From: Aliiroseovarius sp. S1123
GTDB taxonomy: Bacteria > Pseudomonadota > Alphaproteobacteria > Rhodobacterales > Rhodobacteraceae
DNA length: 64,000 nt
Assembly: GCF_023015885.1 (NCBI RefSeq)
Contig: NZ_JALKBE010000001.1
Coordinates: forward strand, 372,001 to 436,000
Reading direction: 5' to 3'
Position 1 is the first letter of the stretch. Every line of letters begins with the position of its first letter. The position numbers and the translations under genes are program-made. Of the stretch, positions 7,861 to 63,824 are shown in pieces. The notes under the pieces were generated by a model. The model had not been told where the DNA came from. It saw nothing but the letters and a program-made list of their open reading frames with translations, and made no database searches.

Positions 7861-7890
7861 AAAAAGCCCGGCGCGACGGCCGGGCTTTTC
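7861..7890. terminator. Bidirectional intrinsic terminator
   Basis: A 10-bp stem AAAAGCCCGG/CCGGGCTTTT (7862-7871 with 7880-7889) has A and T runs on both sides. It serves the converging EEP nuclease and sulfurylase genes. Confidence 0.88.
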
Positions 7891-7907: not shown

Positions 7908-9983
7908 TCAGGCTTTTACCAGACCCATGCTCTCCAGCTTCAGCAGAACCTGGTGGGCGCAGTTGTCGACGTCGACGTTTTCAGTCTCGACCGACAGTTC
8001 CGGGTTTACGGGAACGTCATACGGGTCCGAGATACCGGTGAACTCTTTGATCTTGCCTTCGCGGGCCAGTTTATACAGGCCTTTGCGGTCACGACGCTCG
8101 CATTCCTCGATCGAGGTTGCGACGTGCACTTCCACGAAAGCACCGAACTGCTCGATGTCCTCACGCACGGCGCGGCGGGTGGTGGCGTAGGGCGCGATGG
8201 GCGCGCAGATCGCGATGCCACCGTTCTTGGTGATCTCGGAGGCCACGTAGCCGATGCGACGGATGTTCAGGTCGCGGTGTTCTTTCGAGAAGCCAAGCTC
8301 GCTCGACAGGTTTTTACGCACGATGTCGCCATCCAGAAGCGTCACGGGGCGACCGCCCTGTTCCATCAGCTTCACCATCAGCGCGTTGGCGATGGTCGAC
8401 TTGCCCGAACCCGAGAAGCCGGTGAAGAACACGGTGAAACCTTGCTTCGAACGCGGCGGCTTGGTGCGGCGCAGCTCTTTCACCACTTCCGGGAACGAGA
8501 ACCACTCGGGGATCTCTAGGCCTTCGGACAGGCGGCGGCGCAACTCGGTACCCGAGATGTTCAGGATGGTGACGTTGTCACGGTCCTTGATCTCGTCATT
8601 GGGTTCGTACTGGGCGCGTTCCTGCACATAGACCATGTGCTTGAAGTCGACCATTTCGCAGCCGATTTCCGACTGGTTGGCGCGGAAAAGCTCTTGCGCG
8701 TCGTAAGGACCGTAGAAATCTTCACCAGCCGAGTTCTTGCCGGGGCCGGCGTGGTCACGGCCAACGATGAAGTGGGTGCAGCCGTGGTTGGCGCGGATCA
8801 GGCCATGCCAGACGGCTTCGCGCGGACCGGCCATGCGCATTGCAAGGTTCAGAAGGCTCATCGAGGTCGTCGATGCTGGGTATTTGTCCAGCACGGCCTC
8901 GTAGCAGCGCACGCGGGTGAAGTGGTCGACGTCGCCCGGTTTGGTCATGCCGACAACGGGGTGGATCAGCAGGTTGGCCTGCGCTTCTTTCGCGGCGCGG
9001 AAGGTCAGTTCCTGGTGCGCGCGGTGCAGCGGGTTACGGGTTTGGAAGGCCACAACTTTGCGCCAACCCAGTTTGCGGAAATAGGCGCGCAGTTCGTTCG
9101 GGGTGTCACGGCGGCCGCGGAAATCGTAGTGCACAGGCTGCTGGATGCCGACAACCGGACCACCCAGATAGATCTTGCCAGCCTGATTATGCAGATAGTT
9201 CACAGCCGGGTGGGCGTCGTCATCAGCACCAAAGACCTTTTCGGCCTCGTTGGCCTTGTTCGGCTCCCAGCGATCGGTCACGGTCATGGTGGCAAGGATC
9301 ACGCCTTCCTGATCGCGCAGGGCAATGTCCTGACCCAGTTCGATCGAGGCTGCGAAGCCTTCCGACACGTCCAGCGTGATCGGCATCGGCCACAGTTGAC
9401 CATCGGCCAGACGCATGTTTTCCACAACGCCGTTATAGTCTTCTTCCGACAAGAAGCCTTTCAGCGGATTGAAACCGCCGTTCATCAGCAGCTCAAGGTC
9501 GCAGATCTGGCGCGGGGTCAGGTCGTGGCTGGTCAGGTCAGCAGCTTCAACTTTCAGCTTCTGCGCGCTTTCATGGCTGACATAAAGTTCGGGGATCGGA
9601 GCAAGGTTTTGTTCCATAAGATTGGTCCTGTGTTTAAGCGGAACCAGGCCGCTGGTTGTACCGGTTAGTTCCGCGTGCAATGCGTCATATTCTGCAAGCT
9701 TGCGGTTCAAGAAAATGTCTGTGAGCCGCACCTTCTCGGACGCGCCGCGTGCGGTCAGCGAGTAAGAATACCGCTGGCGCTTGTCGGGGCCGTTGCGGGT
9801 GCTGATGGTGATCAGCCCAGCATCGACCGCCGCACGCAGAAGCGCGTTCAGCCTTCCCAAAGACACCCCAATGGCTGCCGCAATCGCGCGCTGCGATGCC
9901 TCCGGCGCCGTATCGAGTTGGCGCAGAAGGCGGAAGAGCTGATCCTCTTCTCCGGGGGTGGGTTTGGCTTCGGTTGACGACAT
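7908..9983 (-). CDS. ATP sulfurylase/APS kinase with N-terminal EPS-associated MarR-like domain
   Basis: Three parts share one open frame of 691 residues. Residues about 12-108 match the EPS-associated MarR-type winged-helix regulators (SQRAIAAAIGVSLGRLNALL, then the helical SEKVRLTDIFLNRKLAEYDA). Residues about 123-505 are an ATP sulfurylase with QTRNPLHRAH (314-323) and GRDHAGPG (408-415). Residues 515-691 are an APS kinase with Walker A GFSGSGKST (522-530) and DGD at 551. Together the last two make PAPS from sulfate and ATP. An ATG at 9617 (residue 123), preceded by AGGACC at suitable spacing, could yield the standard enzyme of about 569 residues, so two products are possible. A perfect palindrome lies just upstream of the first start. 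A role in sulfated polysaccharide supply is inference. Confidence 0.9.
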   Translation of the reverse strand: MSSTEAKPTPGEEDQLFRLLRQLDTAPEASQRAIAAAIGVSLGRLNALLRAAVDAGLITISTRNGPDKRQRYSYSLTARGASEKVRLTDIFLNRKLAEYDALHAELTGTTSGLVPLKHRTNLMEQNLAPIPELYVSHESAQKLKVEAADLTSHDLTPRQICDLELLMNGGFNPLKGFLSEEDYNGVVENMRLADGQLWPMPITLDVSEGFAASIELGQDIALRDQEGVILATMTVTDRWEPNKANEAEKVFGADDDAHPAVNYLHNQAGKIYLGGPVVGIQQPVHYDFRGRRDTPNELRAYFRKLGWRKVVAFQTRNPLHRAHQELTFRAAKEAQANLLIHPVVGMTKPGDVDHFTRVRCYEAVLDKYPASTTSMSLLNLAMRMAGPREAVWHGLIRANHGCTHFIVGRDHAGPGKNSAGEDFYGPYDAQELFRANQSEIGCEMVDFKHMVYVQERAQYEPNDEIKDRDNVTILNISGTELRRRLSEGLEIPEWFSFPEVVKELRRTKPPRSKQGFTVFFTGFSGSGKSTIANALMVKLMEQGGRPVTLLDGDIVRKNLSSELGFSKEHRDLNIRRIGYVASEITKNGGIAICAPIAPYATTRRAVREDIEQFGAFVEVHVATSIEECERRDRKGLYKLAREGKIKEFTGISDPYDVPVNPELSVETENVDVDNCAHQVLLKLESMGLVKA

Positions 9984-10002: not shown

Positions 10003-10016
10003 GTTCACGCGTGAAC
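10003..10016. promoter_or_regulatory. 14-bp perfect palindrome, candidate operator
   Basis: GTTCACGCGTGAAC reads identically on both strands. It ends 20 bases upstream of the start codon of the regulator-sulfurylase chain, where a repressor would block transcription or the ribosome. Autoregulation by the N-terminal winged-helix domain is the simplest reading. Confidence 0.55.
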
Positions 10017-10155
10017 GCATCGCATGAAACAGCGACGTGACAAAGGAGTAATTTGGCAAAATTCTAATTTACGGGGAATGTCGCCAGGACTGTGTGGATT
10101 GGGGAACAGTGTTTCGCAAACGGGAGCGAAAGCGGGAAACTCGCGTGGGGCGAGG

Positions 10156-19779: not shown

Positions 19780-20439
19780 ATGCTCGAATTCAGGAATGTC
19801 AGCAAGTCCTTTTGGACCGGGAAACAGCGCAAGGTCATTCTTGACCAGGCGTCCTTTAGGGTTGAGCTGGGCAATTCGCTTGGTATTCTGGCGCCTAACG
19901 GGACAGGTAAAACTACGCTGATCAACATGATGGCGGGGCTTGAAAAGCCGGACGAAGGCGAGATTGTGCGCAATTGCCGGGTGTCGTTTCCATTGGGGTT
20001 TATGGGCGGGGTCGTCAAAAAGCTGTCCGCCCGTGACAATGCACGGCACATTGCGCGGCTATACGGGCTTGATCCTGACTATCTTGAGGCTTTCACCCGC
20101 TGGCTGTGTGATCTTGAAGAATACTATGATTTCCCCATTGCGACCTACAGTGCAGGGATGCGCGGTCGATTTACCTTCGCGCTTTTGTTGGCGATGGAGT
20201 TTGACATCTATCTGATCGATGAGGGCATGCCGACCACTACGGACGCCGAGTTTAACCGGCGCGCGGGGACAGTGTTGCAGGAGCGTTTGCAAGACGCCAC
20301 GGTGATTGTGGTGTCTCATCAAGCGAAGACATTAGAAAAGCTATGCAATTCGGCGGCCGTTCTGAAAGACGGCCAGTTTTACCAGTTCGAAACTTTGGAA
20401 GAAGCGAAACAGCTCTATGACTACCAAACCCAAGGCTAA
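19780..20439 (+). CDS. Capsular polysaccharide ABC exporter ATPase, KpsT-like
   Basis: The 219-residue protein is an ABC ATPase of the capsule/teichoic-acid export subfamily. It has a Walker A of the form GILAPNGTGKTT (residues 34-45), a shortened signature (YSAGMRGRFTFALLLAMEFDIYLIDE with Walker B), and a switch histidine in VVSHQ. In group 2/3 capsule systems KpsT pairs with the KpsM permease, which is not in this window. The next gene overlaps by 23 bases, so the pair is coupled. Confidence 0.82.
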   Translation: MLEFRNVSKSFWTGKQRKVILDQASFRVELGNSLGILAPNGTGKTTLINMMAGLEKPDEGEIVRNCRVSFPLGFMGGVVKKLSARDNARHIARLYGLDPDYLEAFTRWLCDLEEYYDFPIATYSAGMRGRFTFALLLAMEFDIYLIDEGMPTTTDAEFNRRAGTVLQERLQDATVIVVSHQAKTLEKLCNSAAVLKDGQFYQFETLEEAKQLYDYQTQG

Positions 20440-22096
20440 TCGTTTTCGTATCCGCCGTGATGCCGGGTCTGTTTCGCAAGCGGAGCAGGTGCCCCAGAAC
20501 AGTGAAGATGCTGTGTCGGATCCGGCCGAACAGCCCCCTCAGCAAAGCGCCGACAGTTCGCAAGATCGGGCACTGAATCCGCTGGAAGAACTGGCGGCAG
20601 GCCCACAAGAGGATGGATTGCCGGCTGGTGATATGAAGCCAAGGGTCAGCGTGCAACGCGGCGCCAATCCGGCAGCGACTGACGAGGCTGCCGAGATTGA
20701 AAAAGTGCGTCAAGAAGGTCTCACCGCACGGCAGCTGCGGATGGCACGACGCGTTGCGCAAAAACACGGTGTTCAGACAGACGACGATCACGTGGCCGTC
20801 TATCACCTGCGACAGGCGGGAATTGATCCGTTCAAGCGGGCCAACATGCTTGAACTGGTTGAGGGAGAGGGCGACCGAAACGCCGCCAACTTACCGCAAC
20901 CCGTCGCGCAGCCCAGCTTGCCCGCACCAAGCGTGCTCGACGCGGCCGAGCGTGCGCGCTCGGTCATGGATATCCAGCGTGACATCGCCCGCAGGCGCCG
21001 CCGCAAATTACAGATGCTGCTTCTGCGACTGGCATTTTTCGTTGTGCTGCCATCGATCATAGCCGGGTATTACTATTTCAGTGTCGCCACCCCGATGTAT
21101 GCAACAAAGTCCGAGTTCGTGATCCAGCAAGCTGATGGAGCCGGAGGCAGTGCTGCTGCGGGGCTGTTTGCGGGGACAGGCCTTGCTTCAAGTCAGGACA
21201 GCATCGGTGTTCAGGGCTATCTGACCTCGCGTGAGGCGATGCTGAGGCTGGATCGTGATGTGGGCTTCAAGTCGCATTTCAGCGATCCGTCGATTGACGT
21301 TGTGCAACGGCTCGATTCCGATGCAAGCAATGAAACCGCATATAAGGTCTATCGCAAGCGGGTGAAGATCGGTTTCGATCCGACAGAGGGCATCATCAAG
21401 ATGGAGGTGATTGCCGCCTCTCCTGAAGTCAGCGAACAATACTCGAAATCCCTGATTGCTTACGCGGAAGAGCGTGTCGACAATCTGACCCAACGCAAAC
21501 GCGAAGATCAGATGCAGGGTGCATTGGACAGCTATGAAGAGGCCGAAGTCGAGATGTTGGCGGCTCAGGATCGTGTGTTGAAACTGCAAGAAAACATGGG
21601 CGTGTTCGATGCGACTTCGGACGCATCCTCGCTGATGTCGCAGATCAATACCTATGAACTGCAACTGCAGGATAAGCGATTGCGGTTGGACCAATTGCTG
21701 GACAATGCCACCCCCAATCAGGCCCGAGTGGATGGTGTGCGCGGGGATGTTGCGCGGCTCGAAACCCTGATCGCCGAACTTCGCGGGAAGCTGACGGATA
21801 CAGGGGGTGAAAACGGGTCACTGGCATCCATCAGTGGCCAGTTGCGGATCGCACAAACCAACCTCGAAACACGCACGATTTTGATGCAGCAGGCGCTGCA
21901 ACAGCTCGAGGTTGCCCGGATCGAAGCAAATAAGCAGACCCGCTATTTGTCGACCAACGTAAGCCCTGTGGCGCCGGATCAGCCAACCTATCCCAAAGCG
22001 TTCGAAAACACGCTTCTGGCGTTCCTGATCTTCTCTGGGATCTATCTGATGCTGTCGCTGACCGCATCGATCCTGCGTGAACAGATCTCGTCCTGA
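20417..22096 (+). CDS. Capsule export inner-membrane protein, KpsE/PCP-like
   Basis: The 559-residue protein has a low-complexity cytoplasmic N-terminus of about 195 residues rich in Gln, Pro and Ala, and a first membrane helix (LRLAFFVVLPSIIAGYYYF, about 199-218). A long periplasmic region with coiled coils follows (about 350-500), then a second helix near 530-550. This is the polysaccharide co-polymerase/KpsE architecture that links ABC export to the outer-membrane channel. ATP-YATKSEFVIQQ after the first helix fits the family. The long N-terminal extension is common in alphaproteobacterial members but its role is unknown. Confidence 0.8.
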   Translation: MTTKPKANRFRIRRDAGSVSQAEQVPQNSEDAVSDPAEQPPQQSADSSQDRALNPLEELAAGPQEDGLPAGDMKPRVSVQRGANPAATDEAAEIEKVRQEGLTARQLRMARRVAQKHGVQTDDDHVAVYHLRQAGIDPFKRANMLELVEGEGDRNAANLPQPVAQPSLPAPSVLDAAERARSVMDIQRDIARRRRRKLQMLLLRLAFFVVLPSIIAGYYYFSVATPMYATKSEFVIQQADGAGGSAAAGLFAGTGLASSQDSIGVQGYLTSREAMLRLDRDVGFKSHFSDPSIDVVQRLDSDASNETAYKVYRKRVKIGFDPTEGIIKMEVIAASPEVSEQYSKSLIAYAEERVDNLTQRKREDQMQGALDSYEEAEVEMLAAQDRVLKLQENMGVFDATSDASSLMSQINTYELQLQDKRLRLDQLLDNATPNQARVDGVRGDVARLETLIAELRGKLTDTGGENGSLASISGQLRIAQTNLETRTILMQQALQQLEVARIEANKQTRYLSTNVSPVAPDQPTYPKAFENTLLAFLIFSGIYLMLSLTASILREQISS

Positions 22097-56888: not shown

Positions 56889-58505
56889 GTGGGACAAGAT
56901 CTAAGAAACTGGACACCGGATGACGAGGCCTTCTGGGCTTCCACCGGTAAGTCCATTGCCAACCGAAATCTCTGGATTTCAATTCCCAGCCTGCTGTGCG
57001 GCTTTGCCGTCTGGCTTTACTGGGGCATCATCACAGTTCAGATGATCAACTTGGGCTTCGGATTTGCCAAATCTGACCTGTTTACGCTGGGTGCAATCGC
57101 TGGTCTGACTGGTGCAACATTGCGTATTCCGTCGACCTTCTTCATCCGTATCGCGGGGGGACGAAACACCATCGTGTTTACCACCGCGCTGCTGATGATC
57201 CCGGCCGCTGGTGCCGGTCTGGCACTGCAGAACCCGGATACGCCGCTGTGGTACTTCCAGATCCTGGCCTTCCTGTCGGGTATCGGTGGCGGTAACTTCT
57301 CGTCCTCGATGTCCAACATCAGCTTCTTCTATCCGAAGAAAATTCAGGGCTATGCGCTGGGTATGAACGCAGGTCTGGGCAACTTTGGTGTGACCACCAT
57401 GCAGATCCTGATCCCGCTGGCGATGACCATGGGCATCTTCGGTGGCGAAAGCCGTACGCTGGTGAACACCTCGGGTACGCTGATCGGTAAAATCCCTGCC
57501 GGGACCGAGACTTACATCCAGAACGCTGGCCTGATCTGGCTGGTCTTCCTGATCCCGCTGGCGATCATTGGCTGGATGGGGATGAACAACATCCGTGATG
57601 AGCACGTGTCCCCGAACATCCCCGGACCTCTTGGCGCATTTGCCACGATCACCGGCATGTTGCTGATCGGTTTCCTGACCGCGGCCTTCGGCCTGTGGCT
57701 GCTGCTGCCGGGCACCGAAGCCGGTCTGCCGACCTCGGGTCTGGGCGTGTCCAAATGGATCGTGCTGCCGATCGTAATCGCCTTGACGGTTCTGGGTCTG
57801 AAAATGATCCCCGGTGCTGTCGGTCAAAACCTGAGCCGCCAATACAAGATCTTCGGCAACAAGCACACTTGGGCCATGACCGTGATCTACACCATGACCT
57901 TTGGGTCGTTCATCGGCTACTCGGCTGCTCTGGCGCTGACCATCAAAGTTGTGTTTGGCTTCAGCCACGTTGAAGTCGACGGTGTGATGACCCACGACAT
58001 GGTAAACCCCAACGGCCCGTCGGCCCTGATGTTTGCCTGGATGGGCCCGTTCATCGGCGCTCTGATCCGTCCGCTGGGTGGTATGTGGGCTGACAAAGCC
58101 GGTGGCGCGAAAGTGACCCAGATCATCTCGGTCGTCATGGTCGCCTCGGCACTGGGTGTCGCCTACTTCATTCAGCAGGCCTATTCGTCGGCAACTCCGG
58201 AACAATACTTCTACCCGTTCCTGGGTCTGTTCCTGATCCTGTTTGCCGCCACTGGTATCGGCAACGGTTCGACCTTCCGCACCATCGCGATGGTGTTCAA
58301 CAAAGAACAGGCTGGTCCTGCACTGGGTTGGACTGCTGCGGTTGCTGCTTACGGCGCCTTCATCATCCCCAAAGTGTTTGGTGAACAGCTGAAGGCCGGA
58401 ACGCCTGAGTATGCCTTGTACGGCTTCGCGATCTTCTATGCGGTCTGCATCGCCATCAACTGGTGGTTCTATCTGCGCCCCGGCGCTTACGTCAAGAACC
58501 CCTGA
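56889..58505 (+). CDS. narK2: Nitrate/nitrite antiporter, NarK2 type
   Basis: The 538-residue MFS protein begins at GTG after GAGGAGGGA. It has about twelve helices and nitrate signatures GGGNFSSSMSNISFFYP near residue 137 and the GMNAGLGNFGVTTMQ region near 155, with a long TM11-12 segment. NarK2-type proteins exchange nitrate for nitrite once reduction has begun. In Paracoccus the two NarK parts are fused as one protein; here they are two genes 66 bases apart. Confidence 0.88.
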   Translation: MGQDLRNWTPDDEAFWASTGKSIANRNLWISIPSLLCGFAVWLYWGIITVQMINLGFGFAKSDLFTLGAIAGLTGATLRIPSTFFIRIAGGRNTIVFTTALLMIPAAGAGLALQNPDTPLWYFQILAFLSGIGGGNFSSSMSNISFFYPKKIQGYALGMNAGLGNFGVTTMQILIPLAMTMGIFGGESRTLVNTSGTLIGKIPAGTETYIQNAGLIWLVFLIPLAIIGWMGMNNIRDEHVSPNIPGPLGAFATITGMLLIGFLTAAFGLWLLLPGTEAGLPTSGLGVSKWIVLPIVIALTVLGLKMIPGAVGQNLSRQYKIFGNKHTWAMTVIYTMTFGSFIGYSAALALTIKVVFGFSHVEVDGVMTHDMVNPNGPSALMFAWMGPFIGALIRPLGGMWADKAGGAKVTQIISVVMVASALGVAYFIQQAYSSATPEQYFYPFLGLFLILFAATGIGNGSTFRTIAMVFNKEQAGPALGWTAAVAAYGAFIIPKVFGEQLKAGTPEYALYGFAIFYAVCIAINWWFYLRPGAYVKNP

Positions 58506-58517
58506 TACGTCTGCCCG

Positions 58518-58543
58518 CCTATCCCGGCACATGCCGGGGTAGG
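58518..58543 (+). other. Intercistronic hairpin between narK2 and narG
   Basis: CCTATCCCGGCA (58518-58529) pairs with TGCCGGGGTAGG (58532-58543) at eleven of twelve positions. The two-base spacer is too short to close a loop, so the innermost pair would open. A stable processing or terminator-like stem without a U-tract. Confidence 0.6.
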
Positions 58544-58566
58544 CCAGCCAACCTAGGAGAAATCAG

Positions 58567-61500
58567 ATGAGCCACCTGCTCGACAGACTGAACTTCTTCC
58601 AGTCCAAAGAACTGGAACAGTTTTCTAACGGTCACGGCCAAGTGACCAACGAAAACCGCGACTGGGAGGACACCTATCGGAATCGCTGGCGCCACGACAA
58701 AGTTGTGCGCTCGACCCATGGGGTGAACTGTACCGGATCGTGTTCGTGGAAGATCTATGTGAAATCCGGGATCGTGACCTGGGAAACCCAGCAGACCGAT
58801 TATCCGCGTACGCGCCCCGATCTGCCCAACCATGAACCGCGAGGCTGTGCCCGTGGTGCGTCCTACAGCTGGTATCTGTATTCCGCGAACCGCGTGAAGA
58901 ACCCGCTGGTCCGTGGCCGTCTGATGAAAGTATGGCGCCGGATGCGCCAGACCATGTCGCCGATCGAAGCCTGGACCGCGATCCAGAGCGACCCGATCCT
59001 GCGCGATTCATATGTGAAGACCCGCGGTAAGGGTGGGTTCGTCCGCGCAAGCTGGAATGAGGCGACCGAGATTACTGCCGCCGCCAACGCCTACACCGCC
59101 AAGAAATACGGCCCCGACCGCGTGATCGGCTTCTCGCCCATCCCGGCCATGTCGATGATTTCCTATGCCGCAGGTGCCCGTTACCTGAGCCTGATTGGCG
59201 GGGTCTGCGGATCCTTCTATGACTGGTATTGTGACCTTCCGCCGGCCTCGCCCATGACATGGGGTGAACAGACCGACGTGCCGGAATCGGCTGACTGGTA
59301 CAACGCTGGCTACCTGCTACTCTGGGGTTCGAACGTGCCGCAGACGCGGACGCCGGACGCGCACTTCTATACCGAAGCCCGTTACCGCGGCACCAAGTCC
59401 GCCGTCATCTGCCCCGACTATTCGGAAGCCGCCAAGTTTGGCGATGTTTGGCTGAACGTCAAACAGGGTACCGACGCCGCACTGGCGATGGCCTTTGGTC
59501 ACGTGATCTTGCGTGAATTCCACTTGGACAACCAAGTCGAGTATTTCGAGGACTACTGCCGCAAGTATTCCGACTTCCCGATGCTGGTGAAGCTGGAAGA
59601 CAAAAACGGCAAACTGGTTCCCGGCCGCTTCCTGCGCGCCGACGATCTGGACGGTAAGCTGGGTGAAGACAATAACCCGGAATGGAAGACCGTTGCTCTG
59701 GACGAGAAGTCCGGTGGTTTGGTCGCGCCCAATGGCTCGATCGGGTATCGCTGGGGCGAAGACGGGGAATGGAACCTCGAAGAGCGCGCACAAGAGGCCG
59801 ACACCGATCTGAAAATGACGCTGATCGGCGATGGCGACCATGATCGTGTTGCAGGCGTGGACTTCCCATACTTCGGTGGCGACGCGACCGAACAGTTCTC
59901 GACCGGCGATGATCGTCCTGACGTTCTGACCCGCAACATCCCTGTACGCGAGATTCAGACCAAAGAAGGTGTGATCCGTGTAACCACCGTCTTCGACCTG
60001 TTCTGTGCCAACTATGGTCTGGATCGTGGTCTGGGTGGTGACTGGGTTGCCAAGGATTATAACGAAGACGTTCCGGGCACCCCTGCTTGGGCCGAGAAGA
60101 TCACCGGCGTGTCCGCCGACAAGATCGTCCACGTCGCCCGCGAGTTCGCGCAAAACGCCGAGAAGACCAACGGTAAGTCGATGATCATCATCGGCGCTGC
60201 GATGAACCACTGGTACCACATGGACATGAACTATCGCGGCGTGATCAACATGCTGATCATGTGCGGTTGTGTCGGTCAGTCCGGCGGTGGTTGGGCGCAC
60301 TATGTGGGTCAGGAAAAACTGCGCCCGCAGACTGGCTGGTTACCGCTGGCCTTTGCGCTGGATTGGAACCGTCCGCCGCGTCACATGAACTCGACCTCGA
60401 TGTGGTATGCGCACTCGGATCAGTGGCGCTACGAGACCCTGACCGCCAACGAGATCATTTCGCCGACCGCACCGGAAGGTGATTGGGACGCGTCGATGAT
60501 CGACTACAACATCCGTGCTGAACGGATGGGCTGGTTGCCGTCGGCACCGCAGCTGAAAACCAACCCGTTGGAAGTGGCCAAGCAAGCCAAAGACGCCGGG
60601 ATGGAAATCCCTGCCTATGTGGCGCAGCAGCTGAAGTCTGGCGATCTGGAAATGTCCTGCGAGGACCCGGATGCACCCGAAAACTGGCCGCGCAACCTGT
60701 TTGTCTGGCGCTCGAACCTGCTGGGTTCGTCGGGCAAGGGGCACGAGTACTTCCTGAAGCACCTGCTTGGCACCGATCACGGTGTTCTGGGCAAGGATCT
60801 TGGGGAAGAAGGCGCACAGCTTCCGAAAGAGGCCAAGTGGCACGAGGACGCGCCCGAAGGCAAGCTGGACCTGCTGGTCACGCTGGACTTCCGCATGTCG
60901 ACCACTGCGGTTTATTCGGACATCGTTCTGCCCACGGCTTCGTGGTACGAAAAGAACGACCTGAATACCTCGGACATGCACCCGTTCATCCACCCGCTTC
61001 AGGCGGCTGTGGACCCGGCGTATGAAAGCAAGTCGGACTGGGAGATCTTCAAGTCGATCGCCCACAAGTTCCAGGAAGTTGCCCCGGAAATTCTGGGTGT
61101 GGAAACGGACATCGTTCAGGTGCCGCTTCTGCATGACACCCCGGGTGAGCTGGCACAGGATCAGGTGCGTGACTGGAAGAAAGGCGAATGCGACCTTATT
61201 CCGGGCAAGACCGCGCCGAACTATGTGGCTGTGGAACGCGACTATACTGCGGTTTACGACCACTTCGTGGCCCTTGGTCCGCTTCTGGACAAGCTGGGCA
61301 ACGGCGGTAAAGGCATCATGGTCGACGCCAAGCACGAGGTACAACACCTGCGTGAATTGAATGGCGTGCACGAGGAAGGCCCCGCCAAGGGTCAGCCGAA
61401 GATCGTGACTGACATTGATGCGACCGAGGTCGTGTTGATGCTGGCGCCGGAAACCAACGGCGAAGTTGCGGTGAAAGCATGGGAGTCTCTGTCCAAAGCA

Positions 61501-62304
61501 ACGGGCCGCGACCACACCCACCTGGCCAAACCCAAGGAAGACGAAAAGATCCGGTTCCGTGACATTGCTGCGCAACCTCGCAAGATCATCTCGTCGCCGA
61601 CATGGTCGGGTCTGGAAAGCGAAGATGTCTGCTATAACGCGGGCTACACCAACGTGCACGAGCTGATCCCGTGGCGAACCCTGACTGGTCGTCAACAGAC
61701 CTATCAGGATCACCAGTGGATGCTGGCCTTTGGTGAGGGCTTCCTGTCCTATCGCCCCCCCGTCGATCTGAAAACGATCACCGACGAGGTGCACAGCGAA
61801 AAAGACTGGCCGCATGTGGTGTTGAACTTCATCACGCCGCACCAGAAATGGGGCATCCACTCGACCTATTCCGATAACCTTCACATGCTGACGCTGAACC
61901 GCGGTGGCCCGGTGATCTGGATCTCGGAGAACGATGCGAAATCGGCAGGCATTGTCGATAACGATTGGGTCGAGCTTTACAACTCGAACGGGGCGCTTAC
62001 GGCCCGCGCGGTTGTCAGTCAGCGGATGAAGGACGGAACGACCTTCATGTATCACGCGCAAGAGAAAATCGTGAACACGCCCGGGTCCGAGAAGACCGGT
62101 AAACGCGGCGGCATTCACAACTCGGTCACGCGCGCGACGCTGAAGCCCACCCATATGATCGGCGGCTATGCCCAGCAATCTTACGGTTTCAACTACTACG
62201 GCACCGTTGGTGCGAACCGCGATGAATTCGTCGTGGTGCGCAAGATGAAGAAGGTTGACTGGCTCGACCGTGAAGCGACCCCGAATAAGGAGGCAGCAGA
62301 ATGA
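58567..62304 (+). CDS. narG: Respiratory nitrate reductase alpha subunit NarG
   Basis: NarG reduces nitrate to nitrite at a molybdenum bis-MGD cofactor on the cytoplasmic face of the membrane. The 1245-residue protein has the FS0 cluster ligands H51, C55, C59 (HGVNCTGSC) and C94. The Mo ligand is aspartate D223 in YDWYCDLPPAS, one residue from E. coli D222. LWGSNVPQTRTPDAHF and the C-terminal part complete the fold. No cleavable signal is present, as expected for the membrane-bound cytoplasmic enzyme. AGGAGA precedes the ATG. It overlaps narH by four bases. Confidence 0.97.
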   Translation: MSHLLDRLNFFQSKELEQFSNGHGQVTNENRDWEDTYRNRWRHDKVVRSTHGVNCTGSCSWKIYVKSGIVTWETQQTDYPRTRPDLPNHEPRGCARGASYSWYLYSANRVKNPLVRGRLMKVWRRMRQTMSPIEAWTAIQSDPILRDSYVKTRGKGGFVRASWNEATEITAAANAYTAKKYGPDRVIGFSPIPAMSMISYAAGARYLSLIGGVCGSFYDWYCDLPPASPMTWGEQTDVPESADWYNAGYLLLWGSNVPQTRTPDAHFYTEARYRGTKSAVICPDYSEAAKFGDVWLNVKQGTDAALAMAFGHVILREFHLDNQVEYFEDYCRKYSDFPMLVKLEDKNGKLVPGRFLRADDLDGKLGEDNNPEWKTVALDEKSGGLVAPNGSIGYRWGEDGEWNLEERAQEADTDLKMTLIGDGDHDRVAGVDFPYFGGDATEQFSTGDDRPDVLTRNIPVREIQTKEGVIRVTTVFDLFCANYGLDRGLGGDWVAKDYNEDVPGTPAWAEKITGVSADKIVHVAREFAQNAEKTNGKSMIIIGAAMNHWYHMDMNYRGVINMLIMCGCVGQSGGGWAHYVGQEKLRPQTGWLPLAFALDWNRPPRHMNSTSMWYAHSDQWRYETLTANEIISPTAPEGDWDASMIDYNIRAERMGWLPSAPQLKTNPLEVAKQAKDAGMEIPAYVAQQLKSGDLEMSCEDPDAPENWPRNLFVWRSNLLGSSGKGHEYFLKHLLGTDHGVLGKDLGEEGAQLPKEAKWHEDAPEGKLDLLVTLDFRMSTTAVYSDIVLPTASWYEKNDLNTSDMHPFIHPLQAAVDPAYESKSDWEIFKSIAHKFQEVAPEILGVETDIVQVPLLHDTPGELAQDQVRDWKKGECDLIPGKTAPNYVAVERDYTAVYDHFVALGPLLDKLGNGGKGIMVDAKHEVQHLRELNGVHEEGPAKGQPKIVTDIDATEVVLMLAPETNGEVAVKAWESLSKATGRDHTHLAKPKEDEKIRFRDIAAQPRKIISSPTWSGLESEDVCYNAGYTNVHELIPWRTLTGRQQTYQDHQWMLAFGEGFLSYRPPVDLKTITDEVHSEKDWPHVVLNFITPHQKWGIHSTYSDNLHMLTLNRGGPVIWISENDAKSAGIVDNDWVELYNSNGALTARAVVSQRMKDGTTFMYHAQEKIVNTPGSEKTGKRGGIHNSVTRATLKPTHMIGGYAQQSYGFNYYGTVGANRDEFVVVRKMKKVDWLDREATPNKEAAE

Positions 62305-63824
62305 AGGTACGTGCTCAAATCGGCATGGTGTTGAACCTTGATAAATGTATCGGGTGCCACACCTGCTCTGTGACGTGTAAGAACGTCTGGACGTCCCGTG
62401 ATGGTGTTGAATACGCATGGTTCAACAACGTGGAAAGCAAGCCGGGCACCGGCTATCCGACCGACTGGGAAAACCAGGCGCGTTGGAACGGTGGCTGGGA
62501 ACGCACCAAATCGGGCAAGTTGCAGCCCAAACAGGGGTCGAAATGGCGGATCTTGGCGAATATCTTCGCCAACCCCGACCTGCCCGAGATCGACGACTAC
62601 TATGAACCGTTCGATTTCGACTATGACCACCTGAAGTCCGCGCCTGAAATGGAGGCCTTCCCGACCGCGCGCCCGCGCTCCAAGATCACTGGCGAGCGGA
62701 TGGAGAAGATCGAGAAGGGGCCGAACTGGGAAGAGATCCTGGGCGGCGAATTCTCGAAACGTGGTGAAGACTACAACTTCGAAGGCATCCAAAAGCAGAT
62801 CTACGGGGAATACGAGAACACCTTCATGATGTATCTCCCTCGTCTGTGCGAACACTGCCTGAACCCGGCGTGTGCCGCGTCCTGCCCCTCGGGCGCGATC
62901 TATAAGCGTGAGGAAGACGGCATCGTTCTGATCGACCAAGAGAAGTGTCGCGGTTGGCGGATGTGTGTCTCGGGCTGTCCTTACAAAAAGGTCTACTACA
63001 ACTGGTCGACCGGTAAGTCCGAGAAATGCACCCTGTGCTATCCGCGCATCGAAAGCGGCAACCCGACAGTCTGTTCGGAAACCTGCGTAGGCCGGATCCG
63101 CTATCTGGGTGTGATGCTCTATGATGCCGATAAGATCGAGGAAGCCGCGAATGCGGAAGCCACTACCGATCTGTATGACGCGCAGCTGGGTGTTTTCCTT
63201 GACCCGAGCGATCCCGAGGTGATTGCCGCCGCAGCACGCGATGGTGTCCCGCAGGATTGGATCAAGGCAGCTCAGGAAAGCCCGATCTGGAAGATGGCGA
63301 TGGAATGGAAAGTGGCGTTCCCGCTGCACCCCGAATATCGCACCCTTCCGATGGTCTGGTACATCCCACCGCTTAGCCCGATCCAGAACGCGGCCGAAGC
63401 AGGCGCAATCGGCACAGACGGCGCAATGCCCGACGTGAAGAACCTGCGTATCCCGGTCAAATATCTGGCCAACATGCTGACCGCTGGGGACGAAGCCCCC
63501 GTTGTCACCGCGTTGGAACGGATGCTTGGCATGCGGGCCTATATGCGCTCGAAAACCATCGAGGGCGTTACGGATGAAGGTCTGGCTGAACGCGTTGGTC
63601 TGACCGGTCGAATGATCGAGGACATGTATAAAATCATGGCCTTGGCTGACTACGAAGACCGTTTCGTGATCCCAACCACGCACCGTGAGCAAGTTGAAGA
63701 TGCTTACGATCTACGCGGCGGCTGCGGGTTCACGGACACCAATGGCTGTTCCGGTGGAACGTCCAAGGCCTCGCTCTTTGGCGGTGCCAAGAAAGCCCTG
63801 AAAATGCCGTCGGAGGTGATGTAA
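62301..63824 (+). CDS. narH: Respiratory nitrate reductase beta subunit NarH
   Basis: NarH passes electrons from NarI to NarG through four iron-sulfur clusters. Cysteines appear in the usual groups: CIGCHTCSVTC (C16, C19, C22, C26), CEHCLNPACAASC, CRGWRMCVSGC (with Trp in place of a Cys, giving a [3Fe-4S] cluster), and CTLCYPRIESGNPTVCSETC. The protein is 507 residues, the normal length. It overlaps narG and its stop overlaps the narJ start by one base (TAATG). Confidence 0.97.
   Translation: MKVRAQIGMVLNLDKCIGCHTCSVTCKNVWTSRDGVEYAWFNNVESKPGTGYPTDWENQARWNGGWERTKSGKLQPKQGSKWRILANIFANPDLPEIDDYYEPFDFDYDHLKSAPEMEAFPTARPRSKITGERMEKIEKGPNWEEILGGEFSKRGEDYNFEGIQKQIYGEYENTFMMYLPRLCEHCLNPACAASCPSGAIYKREEDGIVLIDQEKCRGWRMCVSGCPYKKVYYNWSTGKSEKCTLCYPRIESGNPTVCSETCVGRIRYLGVMLYDADKIEEAANAEATTDLYDAQLGVFLDPSDPEVIAAAARDGVPQDWIKAAQESPIWKMAMEWKVAFPLHPEYRTLPMVWYIPPLSPIQNAAEAGAIGTDGAMPDVKNLRIPVKYLANMLTAGDEAPVVTALERMLGMRAYMRSKTIEGVTDEGLAERVGLTGRMIEDMYKIMALADYEDRFVIPTTHREQVEDAYDLRGGCGFTDTNGCSGGTSKASLFGGAKKALKMPSEVM

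Follow-up and report, generated by a model that had tools for sequence, protein, structure and literature searches.

In Aliiroseovarius sp. S1123 one open reading frame joins a MarR_EPS-type winged-helix regulator to a PAPS synthetase. A comparison of 168 distinct fused sequences suggests that the gene probably yields two nested products, and that the longer one would repress its own gene through an upstream palindrome, so that PAPS synthetase supply would be under negative feedback. The gene lies in the window, by which we mean the whole stretch of 64,000 nucleotides that was analysed (contig NZ_JALKBE010000001.1, positions 372,001 to 436,000). Its features are listed in Table 1.

Table 1. 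Positions, in the window, of the fusion gene, its parts and its putative control elements
Feature	Position	Strand	Basis
Fusion gene, MarR_EPS winged helix + ATP sulfurylase + APS kinase, 691 aa	7908..9983	-	open frame, profile matches, orthologues
MarR_EPS winged-helix domain, residues 13-107	9663..9947	-	TIGR04176, predicted fold, dN/dS 0.18
Linker, residues 109-122	9618..9659	-	model confidence below 50 from residue 117 on; dN/dS 0.27 (residues 109-117)
PAPS synthetase part: PUA_2 130-281, ATP-sulfurylase 292-506, APS kinase 514-665	7911..9617	-	Pfam, NF004040
Predicted internal Shine-Dalgarno AGGA (AGG is the codon of Arg119)	9626..9629	-	conserved at this codon
Internal ATG start (residue 123) of the predicted enzyme-only product	9615..9617	-	ATG, GTG or TTG in 168/168
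Palindrome GTTCACGCGTGAAC, proposed operator, 19 bases upstream of the long start	10003..10016	-	conservation at fused loci
CTTTGT, possible -35 element	10040..10045	-	CTTT column conservation 0.77-0.94

The fused gene and its occurrence

The frame contains no internal stop over its 691 codons. When the N-terminal 122 residues were searched alone against regulator families, they matched TIGR04176 (MarR_EPS) over residues 13-107 with 91.7 bits, compared to a cut-off of 88. The whole protein scored 87.1 bits, and the other fused copies scored some above and some below the cut-off. Pfam gave HTH_24 and MarR_2 at the N-terminus, MarR_2 exceeding its cut-off only with the N-terminus searched alone, and PUA_2, ATP-sulfurylase and APS_kinase in the enzyme. 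Residues 121-690 matched NF004040 (bifunctional SAT/APS kinase) with 1032.3 bits (cut-off 669) over model positions 4-571 of 572. An earlier note on this DNA had read the frame as a MarR-type regulator joined to a full PAPS synthetase, and these matches confirm that reading. R316-H323 (RNPLHRAH) and S524-T530 (SGSGKST), the predicted catalytic motifs, are invariant in 42 aligned fused sequences; we take them to be the HxxH-type motif of the sulfurylase and the P-loop of the kinase, respectively. The solved structures closest in sequence to the enzyme part are the ATP sulfurylases 1i2d and 1m8p, presumably both fungal, and the bifunctional enzymes 2gks and 3cr8. Residues 121-690 are a full member of the NF004040/PRK05537 enzymes (solved relatives 1i2d, 2gks and 3cr8). 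That model begins at residue 121, the solved chains match from residue 130 or later, and the match includes no winged helix. The predicted structure of the N-terminal 122 residues (mean pLDDT 85.9) has the winged-helix elements and a long C-terminal helix, and its best PDB matches are mostly MarR-family chains at modest TM-scores of about 0.5-0.6. Because the full-length model is weak over the enzyme (mean pLDDT 69.6), no inter-domain geometry was taken from it. Just downstream of the gene, at 7866-7885 on the minus strand of the window, a GC-rich inverted repeat with a run of T after it resembles its terminator.

The same note had called for a survey of how widely the fusion occurs. In 18 of 21 same-genus genomes, the window's own included, the match extended at least from residue 6 to residue 690 of the query without a stop. 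Among the remaining three, contig ends split the gene in G009, and the enzyme stands alone in G014 and G016. A full-length fusion was found, among the matches listed, in at least 89 of 394 family genomes, a sample of nearly one genome per genus in which distant fusions may be missed. One of these 89 (G273) has a single stop, at its extreme C-terminus. G416 and G068 are also fused and are cut by contig ends, and they were the only genomes that a separate MarR_EPS domain search of the family added among the matches listed. The frame is therefore not a sequencing error, since full-length fusions recur across the family; the frame is open in 185 loci, which likewise excludes a hidden stop or a misassembly. 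In a phylum sample of 398 genomes, all fusion-length frames fell in Rhodobacteraceae, and the open frames of matches in other families were at most 345 codons long. All 80 named loci are fused in frame, and they include Aliiroseovarius, Leisingera, Shimia, Phaeobacter, Roseovarius, Tateyamaria, Octadecabacter, Salipiger and Maritimibacter. The fused frame is established, and by comparison of genomes the fusion is a property of many marine Roseobacter-group bacteria.

We gathered 218 loci, of which 215 carry the enzyme and 185 are fused in frame, giving the 168 distinct sequences; fused loci were sought preferentially, so that 185 of 215 is not a frequency. None of the 30 non-fused enzyme loci has a MarR_EPS domain upstream (29 with at least 1.25 kb of upstream sequence; L020 ends at a contig end), and no MarR_EPS gene adjacent to the enzyme but unfused occurs among the 215. 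The trxB gene lies upstream on the same strand in 70 of the 71 fused loci with full flanks and in 18 of the 29 enzyme-only loci scanned (about 2 kb away in L137). With this shared neighbour, the enzyme-only genes often occupy the same place as the fusion. The fusion gene is surrounded by trxB, lrp, an hsp20-like gene, purE and purK, and there is no exopolysaccharide locus among its neighbours. Farther away in the window are two genes which we take to be a capsule-type ABC export ATPase and its chain-length partner (19780-22096, about 10 kb from the fusion), and genes presumably for nitrate transport and for two subunits, the large and the iron-sulfur one, of a respiratory nitrate reductase (56889-63824).

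On the enzyme tree, which is weakly resolved (19 of 131 inner branches starred) and on which the contig-end locus L020 is mislabelled unfused, the fused/unfused label takes at least 23 changes, 7 of them forced by well-supported branches. The label clusters weakly: shuffled labels take 26.7 changes, and 5 of 500 shuffles come as low as 23. We read this pattern as repeated loss of the MarR domain, with transfer between lineages as the alternative. Because many relatives carry the enzyme alone, the MarR_EPS domain is dispensable. Two fused loci are unusual. The match in L168 (Leisingera aquaemixtae) spans 3098 bases compared to about 2070 expected, with a normal junction, perhaps owing to an insert or a merged match. 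L115 (G332) has a divergent MarR domain, a 38-residue linker, two palindromes upstream and its ribosome site in another codon register, and it is perhaps an independent fusion.

The linker and the internal start

Selection on the frame was estimated from 797 moderately diverged pairs among 4000 drawn, and the ratios are approximate because synonymous sites are near saturation. Beside the values for the MarR part and the linker in Table 1, dN/dS was 0.12 for the enzyme and 0.48 for codons 118-122. The value of 0.48 over these five codons, which lie around the putative internal ribosome site, suggests little protein constraint there. By the same estimates the fused frame is kept and its linker is under purifying selection. 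Among the 168 sequences the linker has 16 residues in 151, 15 in two and 38 in one, with 14 not measured; differences in length are whole codons, as the in-frame fusion classification requires.

AGG stands four codons ahead of the internal start in 164 of the 168 sequences. In L094 and L108 the AGG and the start are shifted together by one codon, so that 166 of 168 have the two at the same distance. The exceptions are L105, with CGG, and L115, in which GAGAGGA is kept in the other reading register. All 168 have a start codon: 158 ATG, 7 GTG and 1 TTG in register, and two ATG one codon off. The nearby residues vary: the arginine follows His, Tyr, Asn or Ser and is itself followed by Thr, Ser, Asn or Met. 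Of 8680 other arginine codons in the same genes, 0.62% are AGG. The share of AGG is 99% at the junction, and the next highest share in 43 conserved arginine columns is 3.6%. The 168 sequences are related and these counts are not independent trials; synonymous sites elsewhere in the genes, however, diverge strongly in the pairs compared (proportion 0.44-0.66).

Modelled pairing with the anti-Shine-Dalgarno sequence had a median of -4.0 kcal/mol at the internal start (n=168) and -2.2 kcal/mol at the long start (n=166), compared to -3.05 kcal/mol for enzyme-only genes (n=28) and -2.6 kcal/mol for other in-frame ATG codons (n=2374). Because the ribosome site of the long start is no better than that of an ordinary in-frame ATG, the long form may be scarce. 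The proposal of the earlier note that one frame gives both a DNA-binding enzyme and a free enzyme gains support from a predicted ribosome site and start codon conserved across 168 sequences. We consider it very likely that the internal start is in use.

The palindrome and related sites

The palindrome GTTCANNNNTGAAC (GTTCA-N4-TGAAC) stands just before the long start in 165 of 167 fused loci (L042, whose contig ends there, was left out), and each of the other two is one mismatch off. It begins 30-34 bases before the long start in 115 of the 165. It was absent within 400 bases upstream of all 29 enzyme-only genes whose upstream sequence was long enough, two of which are distant relatives from other families, from all 168 fused gene bodies, and from the shuffled upstream regions (one shuffle per locus). 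A second, looser box lies upstream in 32 of 167 fused loci. A conserved CTTT block lies upstream of the palindrome, at a distance of 29 to 26 bases, and a scan for sigma-70-type consensus promoters upstream of the fusion found nothing. From the spacing of the CTTT block alone, the palindrome would cover the -10 region or the transcript start. A second MarR_EPS match at E <= 1e-10 is absent in 75 of 88 fused genomes, among the matches listed, which points to the fused domain as the one that would naturally read the palindrome. We judge autoregulation through the palindrome to be likely, with the regulator half most probably acting as a repressor of its own gene.

Stand-alone MarR_EPS genes carry related sites. 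After a locus truncated at a contig end and five others with an undetected signature had been dropped, we tested GTTCA/TGAAC half-sites at spacers 2 to 9 before the best-scoring loci only. Outside the family, GTTCA-N5-TGAAC was found in 14 of 17 loci: all 14 from other classes have it, and the three same-class loci (L234, L238 and L241) lack it. Inside the family 10 of 24 have a site, nine with spacer 4 and one with spacer 5, and 14 have no exact site. The fusion resembles the TIGR04176 regulators in its N-terminal domain, in a conserved recognition-helix region and in the GTTCA half-sites upstream. It differs from them in being joined to an enzyme, whereas members outside the family reach at most 345 codons in the 398-genome phylum sample, and in having a 4-base spacer compared to the 5-base spacer of other classes.

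The genome of the window has six exact GTTCA-N4-TGAAC sites, that of the fusion and five others, compared to one in the reversed control. One of the five (C16:274220-274233) lies upstream of a stand-alone MarR_EPS paralogue, L255 (G000:C16:273788-274096). This paralogue leads genes which, as read from their sequences, resemble UDP-glucose dehydrogenase, a nucleotide-sugar epimerase and an acyltransferase, and which form a polysaccharide locus. Another site (C17:233806), before a response-regulator gene, is kept in 4 of 16 same-genus genomes, the own genome included, and the remaining three fall within open frames of coding appearance. A search for exact sites found no conserved target of the palindrome beyond the fusion. 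Inside the genus, 14 fused genomes have 4-14 exact sites and two enzyme-only genomes have 10 and 4, the counts exceeding the reversed control by at least 2 in 15 of the 16; outside the genus, six fused genomes have 2-4 and 18 enzyme-only genomes have 0-57. Over these 40 genomes the counts do not track the presence of the fusion, and no genome-wide excess of sites tied to the fusion was seen. The enzyme-only genome G320 stands out with 57 exact GTTCANNNNTGAAC sites, possibly owing to a repeat element or a large regulon; its reversed control has none, and the other 39 genomes range from 0 to 17.

Proposed mechanism and alternatives

We propose that two nested proteins come from one frame: a long form consisting of MarR_EPS and PAPS synthetase, and a short form consisting of PAPS synthetase from residue 123. 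The long form would bind GTTCA-N4-TGAAC just 5' of its own start and repress the gene, and PAPS synthetase supply would thereby come under negative feedback. Long and short forms may assemble together, and the state of the enzyme (APS, PAPS or ATP bound) may tune DNA binding. The comparisons support the fused frame, the internal ribosome site with its start, and the palindrome with its tie to MarR_EPS. From these we infer that both products are made, that the palindrome is bound, that its binding leads to repression and not activation, that the forms assemble jointly and that the enzyme state tunes binding. Sensing by the enzyme half is a tentative suggestion. It is equally tentative that PAPS synthetase senses its substrates or product and that a mixed assembly of long and short forms switches its own gene, which would make a one-gene feedback loop for sulfate activation. 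Several biosynthetic or catabolic enzymes carry their own DNA-binding domain and act as repressors, namely BirA, NadR and PutA; in NadR a helix-turn-helix is joined to a nucleotidyltransferase and a kinase. By analogy the present arrangement would work like BirA and NadR. It shares with these three an enzyme fused to a DNA-binding domain (here by sequence and predicted fold), but it belongs to another pathway, uses another DNA-binding family and has a conserved nested start for an enzyme-only form.

The gene could also be a plain autorepressor in which the fusion is a by-product: the stop between two genes was lost, the enzyme comes mostly from the internal start, and the long form carries an idle tail with no metabolite sensing. 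The better ribosome site at the internal start fits this explanation, as do the many relatives without the MarR domain and a linker that is short and of low model confidence, as expected of a flexible stretch. However, the two genes could be separated by a single linker substitution, yet no adjacent unfused pair occurs in the 215 enzyme loci, and the linker is under purifying selection. We hold this explanation to be possible while leaning away from it. At the other extreme, the full fusion could be the only product, with AGG and the start codon arising from chance or codon preference. This would agree with a frame that is open throughout and with the conservation of the fusion protein, but AGG at 166 of 168 junctions compared to a background of 0.6%, together with solely start codons at the internal site, makes it very improbable.

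The remaining explanations concern what the regulator half reads. The earlier note had suggested that a regulator which itself makes PAPS could link sulfate activation to the control of polysaccharide or sulfur genes; in this reading it would regulate exopolysaccharide or sulfur-assimilation genes. The name MarR_EPS points in this direction; so do the potential PAPS users in the own genome (one PAPS/APS reductase match and six Sulfotransfer_3 matches) and the paralogue with the same palindrome in a polysaccharide locus. However, the palindrome is at the fusion itself, and the five other sites amount to that one paralogue, one poorly kept site at a response-regulator gene and three in coding-looking frames. 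Moreover, the six fused genomes outside the genus have only 2-4 exact sites, no polysaccharide or sulfur gene was recognised by eye beside the fusion in nine loci, and the neighbours traced in 71 loci are housekeeping genes. On the evidence of exact sites, such control is not supported, and we regard it as unlikely. The palindrome could instead be read by another regulator, the MarR domain having a different, perhaps structural, role. Binding of the palindrome by the MarR domain is a prediction from sequence, and 14 of the 24 stand-alone family members lack an exact site, as this would allow. Against it, the half-sites precede stand-alone MarR_EPS genes in all 14 loci of other classes and are absent before 29 enzyme-only genes; we consider another reader quite unlikely. 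Autorepression by the long form, with a nested enzyme-only product, is the reading that we prefer.

A literature search, with most subscription papers outside its scope, found no description of a MarR_EPS-PAPS synthetase fusion, and no described operator for the MarR_EPS family was found in the literature searched. In the portions available of two papers (PMC10599003, PMC8007912), an EPS-associated MarR regulator is mentioned once each, with neither operator nor fusion. The available part of another lists a 64 kDa protein and says nothing on the fusion (PMC4103551). This protein is probably the product of the plasmid gene, because Roseobacter plasmid copies of the enzyme match only from residue 100-126. 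A knockout in Phaeobacter concerned PGA1_c24800, which the excerpt identifies as the enzyme gene, whether fused or not (PMC3678758). In Ruegeria pomeroyi, according to the accessible part of the report, the transcript of SAT (fused or not) was about 0.5-fold with DMSP, not marked significant, and the cysH and cysJI transcripts dropped to 0.03 (PMC9769926).

The fusion predicts the mode of sulfate-activation control in a large group of marine bacteria, and its palindrome is a specific candidate operator for the MarR_EPS family. The gene is also predicted to be a clear natural case of a nested start, by which a single frame gives both a regulator-enzyme and the free enzyme. If our proposal is true, feedback on sulfate activation would be contained in a single gene, and the half-sites of the palindrome would be common to the MarR_EPS family.
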